The notes under the pieces: generated by a model
Told to the model about the DNA's origin: nothing
Databases searched by the model: none
The model's input: the letters and a program-made list of their open reading frames with translations, nothing else
Position numbers and translations under genes: made by a program
Part shown: positions 6,224-22,371 of the stretch, piece after piece
How positions within the stretch are numbered: the first letter of the stretch is position 1
How the letters are laid out: each line of letters starts with the position of its first letter
DNA from: a virus
Direction: 5' to 3' (one strand)
Length of the DNA: 22,971 bases
IMG/VR virus record: IMGVR_UViG_3300047492_000035
Location: 1 to 22,971 of that record

Positions 6224-6231
6224 TATTTATG
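6224..6231 (-). promoter_or_regulatory. CATAAATA late-promoter-like box, start codon 5 nt downstream
   Basis: Minus-strand CATAAATACTAAT is followed directly by ATG 6218; the extended form ATAAATACTA is close to the T4 late-promoter consensus. It sits just downstream of the capsid terminator, so the next transcription unit would begin here. A start site placed as in T4 falls on the A of the ATG. Confidence 0.5.
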
Positions 6232-6236
6232 ATGCG

Positions 6237-6259
6237 AAAAAAGGCTCCGTAGAGCCTTT
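6237..6259 (-). terminator. Rho-independent terminator after the major capsid gene
   Basis: A perfect 8-bp stem (AAAGGCTC at minus 6259-6252 with GAGCCTTT at minus 6247-6240) encloses a 4-nt loop. The plus-strand A-run 6237-6242 gives a T6 tail on minus. It lies 26 bp past the capsid stop and would let capsid mRNA be made in excess over the downstream neck and fibre genes. Confidence 0.85.
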
Positions 6260-6284
6260 CTTCTTGCTATTACACTTAATAAAA

Positions 6285-8653: not shown

Positions 8654-9004
8654 TTAATTGTTAGTTGTATTGGGCACTTCATTCGTGTTACCAATACGAT
8701 TCTTCCAATAAACTGCCCTTTTAAGGCTATTTACGAAATTGTCAATTCCAACAAGTTCGTTACATAACGCAACTCGTTGCAAATTATCTTCTGTTGTATG
8801 TCCACGCAAACTAGCAATATTATCTGCTAGTTCAAACTTAAAGTGATGGACAAACATCGCTAAATCTTTATTTTTTAATAATGCTTCTGCTTGACTACCA
8901 TAATGTCTGACACGGTCTTTTTGTGCCGCTGTCATATTTTTAATATTGTTTAAGTCAACATTAAGTTTTGTATTATAATGGTCAATCGTATCTTCACTAA
9001 TCAT
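8654..9004 (-). CDS. Small helical protein between portal and scaffold
   Basis: A 116-residue, mostly helical protein I do not recognise. Features include AAQKDRVRHYGSQAEALLKN at 25-44, a central HHFKFELADNIASLRGH and NFVNSLKRAVYWKNRIG near the C-terminus. Placement between portal and scaffold in a compact block implies a role in procapsid assembly or a late role in the head, but no motif supports a specific one. The start ATG 9004 has GGAA 9 nt upstream, and a CATAAATA box (9025-9032) lies ahead of it, after the portal stop. Confidence 0.7.
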   Translation of the reverse strand: MISEDTIDHYNTKLNVDLNNIKNMTAAQKDRVRHYGSQAEALLKNKDLAMFVHHFKFELADNIASLRGHTTEDNLQRVALCNELVGIDNFVNSLKRAVYWKNRIGNTNEVPNTTNN

Positions 9005-9024
9005 ATTCTATTCCAATTATATTT

Positions 9025-9032
9025 TATTTATG
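9025..9032 (-). promoter_or_regulatory. CATAAATA late-promoter-like box
   Basis: Minus-strand CATAAATAAAATA lies between the portal stop (9041) and ATG 9004. A T4-like start site would be 9019, giving a 15-nt leader that contains GGAA. It would boost the small protein, scaffold and capsid relative to the portal. Confidence 0.45.
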
Positions 9033-11347: not shown

Positions 11348-11355
11348 TATTTATG
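11348..11355 (-). promoter_or_regulatory. CATAAATA late-promoter-like box before the portal
   Basis: Minus-strand CATAAATATAATA lies in the 41-bp gap between the glycosyltransferase stop (11365) and the portal ATG (11323). A T4-like start would be 11342, with a 19-nt leader containing AAGGG. Confidence 0.45.
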
Positions 11356-11364
11356 TCTGTAAAA

Positions 11365-12219
11365 TTAGTGTCGTAGCGAGTACTTTAAGTTATCTAAAAA
11401 CTTAGCAACATCACATAGTTCGTTCGTTTTGTAACTGCCATAATTCTTGTCTTGTAACTCAATAACGCCAGGATACTTCTTTTGCTTCCATCCACCGATA
11501 AAATGAGTGAAATAATCGTTAAATGGATAATCTGTCTTATGATTATTCAATAAGACCTTTGTTTTTATCTTTTTGTAGTATTTCAATATACATCCCAATG
11601 TCTGTTGTTCAACACTACAAATATGTAATTTCTTGTCAGTTTTGAATAATTCACGATTATTTTCTACCAACTTGATTGCTGTGTCTGTATATTCACGATT
11701 TAACTTCATATCGTTCATGTACATAAATCCTAGATTAGGACATTGTATACTATCCAATTCATGTTCAGTTCTAGGAAAAACACTGGGCAATTTATAATAT
11801 TTGTATAATCTTCCCAGATTGTAAACTCGTTCTAAACTGCCACCGATATGTTCAAAACTTTGAAACGCAATATCACAATCAACTAACTCTAAATCTTTGT
11901 GTACTATGAAATCTAAGTCAAAATGTAGATAAGGTTCTTTTTGCTTTTCATATGTCAATATCTTGCTGTAAGCCCATAATGTATTTGGCACTAATCTATC
12001 TATGCCATCATATTCAACTACAAAGTCACAATTTTTTGTCAATTGACTAAAAACATTGCGACCTAATGTATCTGTGTATAATGTTGGACGACCATATATT
12101 TTATTGAAACTTTCAATGCTGGCAACACTACATGCCAACATATCTGTTGTGCTATGCCATACACTACTTCCCTTATCATTTAACCATGGACTAAAACTCC
12201 ATGTTGCTATACATTTCAT
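11365..12219 (-). CDS. Glycosyltransferase-like protein (DxD, GT-A type)
   Basis: The 284-residue protein has the hallmarks of a GT-A glycosyltransferase. It has an N-terminal strand-helix unit, PTLYTDTLG at 45-53, LWAYSKILTYEKQ at 81-93, the metal/nucleotide-sugar motif HFDLDF with D101-x-D103, a CPNLGFMYMN strand typical of the acceptor side, and HFIGGWKQK near residue 238, reminiscent of the HxxGxxK motif of GT8/GT32 enzymes. It resembles DUF6734-type proteins. The sugar and target cannot be read; virion glycosylation, DNA base glycosylation or host surface change are all possible. Its ATG overlaps the stop of the preceding 37-residue gene (ATGA), so the two are co-translated. Placement inside the packaging block is unusual. 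Confidence 0.7.
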   Translation of the reverse strand: MKCIATWSFSPWLNDKGSSVWHSTTDMLACSVASIESFNKIYGRPTLYTDTLGRNVFSQLTKNCDFVVEYDGIDRLVPNTLWAYSKILTYEKQKEPYLHFDLDFIVHKDLELVDCDIAFQSFEHIGGSLERVYNLGRLYKYYKLPSVFPRTEHELDSIQCPNLGFMYMNDMKLNREYTDTAIKLVENNRELFKTDKKLHICSVEQQTLGCILKYYKKIKTKVLLNNHKTDYPFNDYFTHFIGGWKQKKYPGVIELQDKNYGSYKTNELCDVAKFLDNLKYSLRH

Positions 12220-15255: not shown

Positions 15256-15274
15256 AAATTTTCCTTTCAATAAA

Positions 15275-15304
15275 AATACAAGGGTATTTATGTACCCTTG
15301 TATT
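15275..15304 (-). terminator. 12-bp perfect hairpin, probable terminator, with box in loop
   Basis: AATACAAGGGTA (15275-15286) pairs without mismatch with TACCCTTGTATT (15293-15304) around a 6-nt loop. On minus it is followed by TTTATTG and has AT-rich flanks, as in a rho-independent terminator, 7 bp past the stop of the 101-residue gene. The loop and the first bases of the stem contain CATAAATA. Confidence 0.7.
15285..15292 (-). promoter_or_regulatory. CATAAATA late-promoter-like box inside the hairpin loop
   Basis: Minus-strand CATAAATA spans the loop of the 12-bp hairpin and its next two bases. A T4-like start would be 15279, giving a 24-nt leader with AAAGGAAA to ATG 15255. Terminator and promoter thus share the same 30 bp. 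Confidence 0.45.
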
Positions 15305-15311
15305 GACTACA

Positions 15312-17084: not shown

Positions 17085-17092
17085 TATTTATT
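17085..17092 (-). promoter_or_regulatory. AATAAATA late-promoter-like box, start codon 5 nt downstream
   Basis: Minus-strand AATAAATACAATT is followed directly by ATG 17079, the same spacing as at 6218. The box includes the stop codon of the small-terminase-like gene (GAA TAA ATA). A T4-like start would fall on the A of the ATG. Confidence 0.42.
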
Positions 17093-17435
17093 CTCCTTGT
17101 TTACCGACAAGTTTTGCCAATGCGTCACTAAACGCTTGTTGTTTTGCTTGAATAGCATCTTGGCTATCTTCAACTTCAACACGATTTAATGTATGCATGA
17201 CTTTGTTCAATATCAAATTGTGATATTTGATTATAAGTTGTGTGTCGCCACTAGCACGGGCTTTGAAGAAATCTTCAATAAGCATATCTTCATATGGTTT
17301 GCCATTACTTTTCTGTGCTAGACTACCCAATAATGTGTCAATGGTAACAAGATTTTTTCCGCCGGCTTTGCGACCGGCGCCGGGTCTTGCACCACCTCTT
17401 CCATCTTTTTTCTTAATTGGTAATTCAGAGTTCAT
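17088..17435 (-). CDS. Small terminase subunit-like protein ([10 protein letters not shown])
   Basis: From ATG 17435 the protein is 115 residues. ATG 17441 is two residues longer; a longer frame to 17540 runs antisense into the acetyltransferase and is rejected. The N-terminus has [21 protein letters not shown], the GxRPGAGRKxG signature often seen at the start of phage small terminases and related DNA-binding proteins. Helices follow: [50 protein letters not shown], then [19 protein letters not shown]. The pattern fits TerS, which recognises the packaging site, though TerL is about 3 kb away and another candidate is adjacent to it. ATG 17435 lies 5 nt after an ACTAAATA box. Confidence 0.7.
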
Positions 17436-17440
17436 ATTCA

Positions 17441-17453
17441 TATTTAGTAAATA
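17441..17453. promoter_or_regulatory. Palindromic TATTTA-G-TAAATA box between divergent genes
   Basis: TATTTAGTAAATA is a perfect palindrome around one base and gives ACTAAATA on minus and AGTAAATA on plus. On minus the small-terminase ATG 17435 follows after 5 nt. On plus a T4-like start at 17459 gives a 13-nt leader with AAGGA before ATG 17472. It could drive both divergent genes. Confidence 0.42.
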
Positions 17454-17471
17454 ATTATTTAAGGAATTGCT

Positions 17472-17960
17472 ATGAATTATATTTGGAGACCTGCAGTTGG
17501 TACTGATGTAGAAAGTATCGTCAATATGGCGCAAAGCCATTTTCAGTCTGAGATTGACAACATATTCGTTCCAGAACCTGTAACTTATAGTCGTAATGTA
17601 ACATTAGCAATCGTAAATCAATTCTATAATCCTTTAACTTGTCTGTTTAGTGTTTGCGTAGATGAGAATAATCAACTACTGGCATACACATGGGCTGTTC
17701 GTGGGGAAAGAGCAGTTTGGAGTGATGATGAGATGATTGTGATTCGCATGGCTCATGTAAATCTATCATTGTCCACAAAACTACGAATACGCTTAATAAC
17801 AGATATGTTATCAATGTGGGAAGTATTCGCTTCATACTGTTCTGTTCCTATCATTTGCAGTACCACTATGCGTAAAGACCAAAATGCTTTTCTTAAACTA
17901 CATCAAAAACATGGTTATGATGTTCGTGGTAGTTACGCATACAAAAAATTGAGTGCTTAA
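17472..17960 (+). CDS. GNAT-like acetyltransferase, the only complete plus-strand gene
   Basis: The 162-residue protein begins MNYIWRPAVGTDVESIVNMA, like the first strand and helix of GNAT enzymes. It continues with LFSVCVDENNQLLAYTWAVRG (central strands), LSTKLRIRLITDMLSMWEVFA (cofactor-side helix) and ends with DQNAFLKLHQKHGYDVRGSYAYKKL, a good match in style to GNAT motif B (AxxFLxLHxKxGFxxxGxxxxxKxL). The R/QxxGxG/A phosphate loop is not clear, so acetyl-CoA binding is uncertain. AAGGA lies 6 nt before ATG 17472. It is flanked by minus-strand genes on both sides, so minus read-through would produce antisense RNA over it. Target unknown. Confidence 0.65.
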   Translation: MNYIWRPAVGTDVESIVNMAQSHFQSEIDNIFVPEPVTYSRNVTLAIVNQFYNPLTCLFSVCVDENNQLLAYTWAVRGERAVWSDDEMIVIRMAHVNLSLSTKLRIRLITDMLSMWEVFASYCSVPIICSTTMRKDQNAFLKLHQKHGYDVRGSYAYKKLSA

Positions 17961-18039: not shown

Positions 18040-18471
18040 TTAACTTAAAGTTGAATCTAACATCCATACAAATTTAGCAAGGGCAAGTATTCTGTCCTGT
18101 GCGTAGTTTGCTATTTCTTCGTGACCTTCGCTTTCAGCAGTAGCCATAAGAGTTTCATATTCTCCTTTAAGCGATTCCAAATCATTTTTTACCTCTGTTA
18201 ATAATGTATCACTATCGCCAAATATCATAGTAGTAGGTATATTGCTACGATTTAATACATCTTGTATTTCTTCAGGCATAAAGCCATCTAATGTTCTGAT
18301 TAGTTCTGCGATTTTATCTATTTGGTCTTGTAGATCCTCATAGATTTTTTGTAATAGTTTATGGTCGCTGTAAAAGTTGCGACCTAAAATGTTTACATGT
18401 GCAACATGGCTGCGATAGTATGCAACAAAGTTGTCATTGAATGTTTGTGTTAGTTGTTCTAGTGTATTCAT
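18040..18471 (-). CDS. Dps-like ferritin-fold protein
   Basis: At 143 residues and all-helical, this fits the Dps family of iron-storing, DNA-protecting shells. Helix A carries YYRSHVAHVNILGRNFYSDH and helix B KIYEDLQDQIDKIAELIRTL, followed by LLTEVKNDLESLKGEYETLM and a last helix ending FVWMLDSTL. The Dps ferroxidase positions align by spacing: H25, H37, D52 and E56 are present, but the Asp four residues after the second His is Q41. This matches AHxNxxGxNFxxxH and DxxAEL/RI. The basic N-terminal DNA-binding tail of E. coli Dps is missing. It ends the block of ejection-type proteins; start ATG 18471 has AAGGA 6 nt upstream. Might be virion-borne or an enzyme-like protectant; altered ferroxidase centre noted. 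Confidence 0.75.
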   Translation of the reverse strand: MNTLEQLTQTFNDNFVAYYRSHVAHVNILGRNFYSDHKLLQKIYEDLQDQIDKIAELIRTLDGFMPEEIQDVLNRSNIPTTMIFGDSDTLLTEVKNDLESLKGEYETLMATAESEGHEEIANYAQDRILALAKFVWMLDSTLS

Positions 18472-22363: not shown

Positions 22364-22371
22364 TATTTAGT
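22364..22371 (-). promoter_or_regulatory. ACTAAATA late-promoter-like box (variant)
   Basis: Minus-strand ACTAAATATATTA lies between the stop at 22378 and ATG 22345. A T4-like start would be 22358, giving a 13-nt leader with AAAGGA. It matches the variant box at 17448-17441. Confidence 0.35.

Follow-up and report, generated by a model that had tools for sequence, protein, structure and literature searches.

A palindromic box between two divergent phage genes reads as a probable pair of abutting late-type promoters, one of them predicted to give a leaderless mRNA

T4 late promoters (TATAAATA) are read by gp55 together with gp33 and gp45. The T4 late promoter is described as an 8-bp box that extends from -13 to -6, lacks a -35 element and is followed by AT-rich sequence (PMC2988020), and variants of this box are described for Aeh1, with a/gC at -13/-12 (PMC2988020), and for S-PM2, with NATAAATA (PMC2984593). 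The phiEco32/SU10 group is described as using a single-element promoter from which RNA starts 6–8 bp downstream (PMC8948821). In Deinococcus-Thermus, leaderless mRNAs are described whose -10 motif adjoins the ORF, and middle and late mRNAs of the phage phiYS40 are likewise described as leaderless (PMC12340547, PMC3594737). T4-type late boxes, the single-element promoters of phiEco32 and leaderless mRNAs adjacent to -10 motifs are each already known. In the open-licence literature, we found no paper that joins T4-type late boxes with leaderless phage genes.

The DNA studied here is a phage contig of 22,971 bases (the whole record, hereafter the window), which encodes an SU10-type portal, an SU10-type major capsid protein and a terminase large subunit. 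A megablast search among phages with the window as query returned no match. All the credible genes of the window are carried by the minus strand, except one plus-strand gene for a GNAT-fold acetyltransferase-like protein (the GNAT gene; 162 aa). Between its ATG (17472) and the ATG (17435) of a 115-aa small-terminase-like (terS-like) gene on the minus strand, an earlier note reported the palindrome TATTTAGTAAATA (TATTTA-G-TAAATA, 17441–17453) and considered it the only place where a promoter-like box appears on both strands. The palindrome is real, with one occurrence of TATTTANTAAATA in the window and 0 in 100 dinucleotide shuffles, and the uniqueness of the site is borne out as well: no other close pair of opposite-strand TAAATA is present in the window. 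The total of TAAATA is not raised (19 in the window versus a shuffle mean of 34.7); the signal lies in the positions of the hexamer. Ten of the 19 are intergenic (1337 intergenic bases), nine on the minus strand, which matches the strand of nearly all genes, and one on the plus strand, which precedes the only plus-strand gene. A chance palindrome in AT-rich DNA would agree with a hexamer that is not over-represented, but the shuffles and the conservation of both halves in relatives, described below, make this explanation extremely improbable. Judged from the sequence, the palindrome probably represents two abutting, divergent phage-type late promoters, with a leaderless message on the terS side and a leadered message on the GNAT side. 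The coordinates of the relevant features are collected in Table 1.

Table 1. Positions of the boxes, genes and associated elements in the window.
Feature	Coordinates	Strand	Remarks
Leftward promoter box ACTAAATA	17441..17448	-	Core TAAATA 17441-17446; toward the terS-like gene; predicted +1 at 17435
Shared central base pair	17447	.	C before leftward TAAATA (consensus A/C); G before rightward TAAATA (off-consensus)
Rightward promoter box AGTAAATA	17446..17453	+	Core TAAATA 17448-17453; faces the GNAT gene; +1 predicted near 17457-17459
Shine-Dalgarno (SD)-like AAGGA of the GNAT leader	17461..17465	+	SD-like motif before GNAT in 28/28 boxed loci
Small-terminase-like gene, 115 aa	17088..17435	-	Likely start ATG 17435 from box spacing and alignment; predicted leaderless
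GNAT-fold acetyltransferase-like gene, 162 aa	17472..17960	+	AlphaFold2 pLDDT 91.7; 3f0a Z 17.6
Box 5 nt before ATG (6218) of the 194-aa gene	6224..6229	-	Predicted leaderless
Box 20 nt before ATG (9004) of the 116-aa gene	9025..9030	-	Leader type
Portal box, 24 nt ahead of ATG 11323	11348..11353	-	Leader type; 12/13 clade members
Box before the gene upstream of the terL-adjacent genes	15285..15290	-	Inside a hairpin loop
Box 5 nt before ATG (17079) of the 49-aa gene	17085..17090	-	Predicted leaderless; gene matches phrog_2423
Box 18 nt before ATG (22345) of the 236-aa gene	22364..22369	-	Leader type; 14/14 clade members

On the leftward side, the TAAATA ends 5 nt before ATG 17435, a spacing on which the earlier note did not remark. 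Combined with T4 late geometry, this spacing places the predicted +1 at the A of AUG 17435, and the terminase-side mRNA therefore appears to be leaderless and to start at the AUG. Two rival starts exist for the terS-like gene, namely ATG 17441 and a 150-codon ORF from 17540; under T4 geometry, ATG 17441, which lies partly within the box, would be left out of the transcript, and 17435 is the likely start. The small-terminase label itself rests on the position of the gene and on an N-terminus of the GGARPGAGR type, which we take to be a small-terminase motif. No named terminase family was matched: the protein has no Pfam match, and the only PHROGs reached are phrog_15261 (function unknown), by 6 of 12 members, and phrog_1613 (tail assembly chaperone), by one.

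On the rightward side, 18 nt separate the end of TAAATA from the GNAT ATG. The 13-nt leader proposed earlier is obtained if +1 is the sixth base past the box, and the AAGGA proposed with it is present; the fifth and sixth bases after this box in the window are both T, which weighs against the predicted start. The acetyltransferase-like label finds support in the fold, since the AlphaFold2 model matches 3f0a over 147 aligned residues with an rmsd of 2.5 and 13% identity, so that the plus-strand protein, as modelled, has a GNAT acetyltransferase fold. It is like known GNAT acetyltransferases in this whole-length fold match and unlike them in that no Pfam GNAT family was reached by sequence. Next to the GNAT gene, a clade-conserved gene (18040–18471, minus) encodes a ferritin-like (Dps-like) protein (Pfam Ferritin, E 2.5e-15).

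Relatives were collected by scanning viral contigs with three proteins, namely the large terminase (80 loci, the best 80 of 167 stretches), the plus-strand protein (9 loci) and the terS-like protein (11 loci). Matches to both divergent genes define 31 distinct loci, with the window included and sequence duplicates left out. A minus-strand TAAATA is located 4–5 nt before the terS-like ATG in 29 of the 31 loci (5 nt in 22 and 4 nt in 7), and a plus-strand TAAATA is located 18–28 nt before the GNAT ATG in 28 of the 31. The box-to-box offset is 7 in the window only and 13–34 in most relatives. It is -4 in L025, L027, L033 and L086, four loci whose boxes face and overlap each other as TAAATATTTA, and it reaches about 1170 in L020 and L024, each of which has an insertion. 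Because the separation of the boxes varies among relatives, the conserved units are the two boxes and not the palindrome. The promoter reading of the earlier note is upheld and needs amending on two points, as the palindromic symmetry itself is not conserved and the terS message looks leaderless. This variation also bears on the possibility that both genes are controlled by a dimeric regulator, with the palindrome as its symmetric operator. Perfect 6-bp arms between divergent genes are unexpected by chance and would suit such a site; however, a symmetry that is not conserved in relatives, and a half-site that stands singly ahead of many other genes, render an operator very improbable.

Insertions and displaced genes are found at several of these loci. 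An insertion of ~1.2 kb lies between terS and GNAT in G008 (27866–29033), L020 and L024, and that of G008 carries a gene of 373 aa, whose separate box points away from that of GNAT. In L030, as read by eye, a gene is inserted between terS and GNAT, and a box with AGGAG precedes the inserted gene. In L088 and L090, which share the same terS context, the GNAT gene is elsewhere and no rightward box is seen by eye beside terS; the terS gene is preceded by a terminator-like hairpin with a T run and retains GACTAAATA-ATGTT-ATG, also as read by eye. In L089, the GNAT gene is likewise elsewhere, and reading by eye gives a box 20 nt before an ATG, with AGGA, and no rightward box; the terS match of this locus is weak (41% over 76 aa). 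Absence of the right half in loci without an adjacent plus-strand gene, which had been suggested as a check, is thus seen in a few cases from two distinct contexts (L088/L090 and L089), both of which retain a box toward terS. MW202484, which portal and terminase place closest among the named records, is a distant relative and does not have the divergent-box arrangement.

The two boxes differ in the base that precedes TAAATA. This base is A or C in all 29 terS boxes, while it is T or G in 24 of 28 GNAT boxes and A in the other four; the four loci with face-to-face boxes read ATAAATA. The consensus of the locus is [AC]TAAATA toward the terS-like gene and [GT]TAAATA toward the GNAT gene, and the preference before late genes is [AG][AC]TAAATA. 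A or C is also found in nearly all boxes of six further tabulated clusters. GNAT boxes, with T or G where nearly every other late gene has A or C, form a conserved promoter sub-class, and the GNAT promoter may be weaker than the others or differently timed. In the window, the shared central base pair places the terS side on consensus and the GNAT side off consensus, an asymmetry that is also kept in relatives with separated boxes.

The spacing between box and ATG was analyzed in a genome-wide set that comprises the window and 14 related records, of which G013 (same population) was trimmed to its extra part and G012 was used in part. For each TAAATA, spacing was taken as the distance to the first ATG belonging to an ORF of at least 50 codons, and 180 of the 327 boxes have such an ATG within 60 nt. 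The distribution is bimodal, with 45 cases at 4–5 nt, 92 at 14–30 nt and 3 at 8–13 nt. Counted from 1006 candidate ATGs, 35, 1 and 84 cases fall at 4–5, 8–13 and 14–30 nt, compared with shuffle means of 3.1, 9.4 and 25.9. TAAATA has 34 cases at 5 nt versus 0–6 for each of 14 permuted hexamers. An SD-like motif is present in 1 of 37 close-box genes versus 65 of 91 leader-type genes. The pattern MTAAATA-N5-ATG occurs 18 times in nine T4-type genomes (1.61 Mb) versus 8 for the reversed control, a slight excess, and 12 times in four clade genomes (0.153 Mb) versus 2 for the reversed control; with N10 instead of N5, the counts are 8 and 2.

The box is found ahead of packaging and virion genes throughout the clade, and no box was found for the primase and helicase clusters in a tabulation of the window and 13 relatives. 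In the near-complete G002, sigma70-like hexamers lie ahead of two early genes. In the window and 13 relatives, the GNAT gene (14/14), a ~241-aa gene (14/14) and the portal gene (12/13) are leadered, and in the window and its relatives the 194-aa gene has its box at 5–7 nt in 12 of 12 clade members. For the ~114-aa gene after the portal, the box is located at 4–5 nt in G001, G003 and G014, at 7 nt in G004 and at 17–22 nt in seven members, including the window; this gene forms a natural switch of mode between relatives, with the window (9004–9030) among the leader type. A DUF6734 protein (E 6.5e-25) is encoded between portal and terminase in the window (11365–12219, minus), where relatives carry other genes.

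Hairpins accompany two of the boxes in the window. At 6224–6260 (minus), the 194-aa gene has its box CATAAATA directly after the end of a terminator-like hairpin and T run, an order expected for a promoter that restarts transcription. At about 15270–15310 (minus), a 12-bp perfect stem (AATACAAGGGTA / TACCCTTGTATT) holds the box in its loop and is followed by a T-rich tail; several relatives have a box just ahead of a hairpin at the same gene, so that the mRNA may begin with a stem-loop there.

These data also bear on whether TAAATA near an ATG is a translation signal, an AT-rich and unstructured start region, rather than a promoter. The rarity of SD-like motifs in the close-box genes is in line with such a signal. 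However, the same box stands 14–30 nt ahead of mostly SD-led genes, follows terminator-like hairpins (at 6224 in the window and in L088) and lies upstream of the inserted gene in L030, and the permuted AT-rich hexamers give no comparable peak. We consider a translation signal to be very improbable and retain the promoter reading.

With respect to the start site, no information peak is present near -35, and bases 5–6 after the box are almost never G or C. The leader-type set has A at the fifth base past the box in 73%, whereas in the 5-nt class the A of the AUG is the sixth base, and the two sets therefore agree on +1 only to one base. With a prediction exact only to about one base, the promoters could be real and the terS message could still carry a short SD-less leader, by starting at least one base upstream or from another element. 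Two such elements are present: a further leftward TAAATA in the gap (17456–17461, as TTAAATA) and a perfect leftward TATAAT of the sigma70 type in the GNAT start region of the window; no TATAAT was seen in the relatives' sequences inspected. Yet the close spacing at 29 of the 31 terS loci, the 5–7 nt of the 194-aa gene in every clade member and the near-absence of 8–13 nt spacings indicate selection for an AUG at +1, and we regard a leadered terS message as unlikely.

In the arrangement that we favor, each promoter would consist of one element only, [AG][AC]TAAATA or a close variant of it, which occupies the -10 place and has no -35 partner; RNA would start approximately 5–6 nt past the box. 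Leftward, the first base of the mRNA would be the A of AUG 17435, and the small-terminase-like protein would be translated from this leaderless mRNA. Rightward, the mRNA would start near the predicted +1 (Table 1) with a leader of ~13 nt that contains AAGGA, and the GNAT protein would be expressed by ordinary initiation. As this promoter type would need no upstream element, two of them can sit one base pair apart; the polymerase footprints would then overlap, so that occupation of one promoter would exclude that of the other.

Several searches were made for a factor that could recognise the box. Sigma70_r2 and the gp55 PHROGs phrog_234 and phrog_12791 were each found in 0 of 14 related records. 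A purpose-built gp55 HMM detected none in the six-frame ORFs of the relatives, with leave-one-out controls at E 1e-31 or better; hhalign of 67 protein clusters against gp55 gave a best probability of 4.3, and phmmer with phiEco32 gp36 gave a best E of 0.41 in six-frame ORFs. These negative results count against the promoter reading, since they leave it with no known reader. A host search by TerL in GTDB contigs returned none. The contig ends of G002 and G003 carry terminal repeats of 102 and 127 bases, which suggest complete genomes of ~37–38 kb (IMG/VR class linear). As these two look complete, it is unlikely that the factor is simply encoded beyond the contig ends in them. The reader of the box may be a diverged phage factor, a host sigma factor or one supplied by a helper phage. 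Separately, a gene of ~108 aa that lies upstream of terL and is missing in MW202484 was tried as the factor and rejected; its modelled fold is helical, with a best PDB E of 0.49 and no sigma match.

A broader reading, on which we are evenly divided, is that a clade of small SU10-type phages uses a T4-late-like promoter without a recognisable gp55, through an undescribed phage or host factor. The box-to-AUG spacing would then act as a gene-specific switch, with leaderless terS-like and post-capsid genes, SD-led others and in-between spacings avoided, and divergent pairs could sit a single base pair from each other, in which case the stronger side would be determined by the -12 pair that they share. 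The palindrome alone is of low interest, and the spacing pattern adds to it. If the reading is true, spacing alone decides in this clade whether one promoter type yields leaderless or leadered messages, and the phages form a natural series for it. Together with the ~114-aa gene, which swaps modes among relatives, such a series would make leaderless translation of particular late genes directly testable. It would also pose the puzzle of a T4-late-like promoter code in phages without a recognisable T4 late sigma. Such starts may be misplaced by gene callers that look for an SD site, here at 17441 or 17540 versus the likely 17435.

Compared with the T4 late promoter, the putative clade promoter shares the single 8-bp TATAAATA-like box, the lack of a -35 element and the AT-rich downstream sequence, and its [AG]CTAAATA form is of the a/gC type described for Aeh1 (PMC2988020). 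Unlike T4, the clade phages are SU10-type, 36–40 kb in size and without a recognisable gp55; in T4, 0 of 24 TATAAATA lie nearer than 13 nt to an ATG. The clade resembles the phiEco32/SU10 group as a podovirus with SU10-type capsid and portal and a putative single-element promoter, whereas the consensus of the phiEco32 gp36-type promoter is tAATGTAtA instead of TAAATA, and no gp36 relative was found. It resembles the leaderless mRNAs of Deinococcus-Thermus and phiYS40 in having a box a few nucleotides before the ORF and no SD site. It differs from them in its T4-late-like box, in belonging to another phage clade and in the predicted use of one box for both leaderless and leadered genes.
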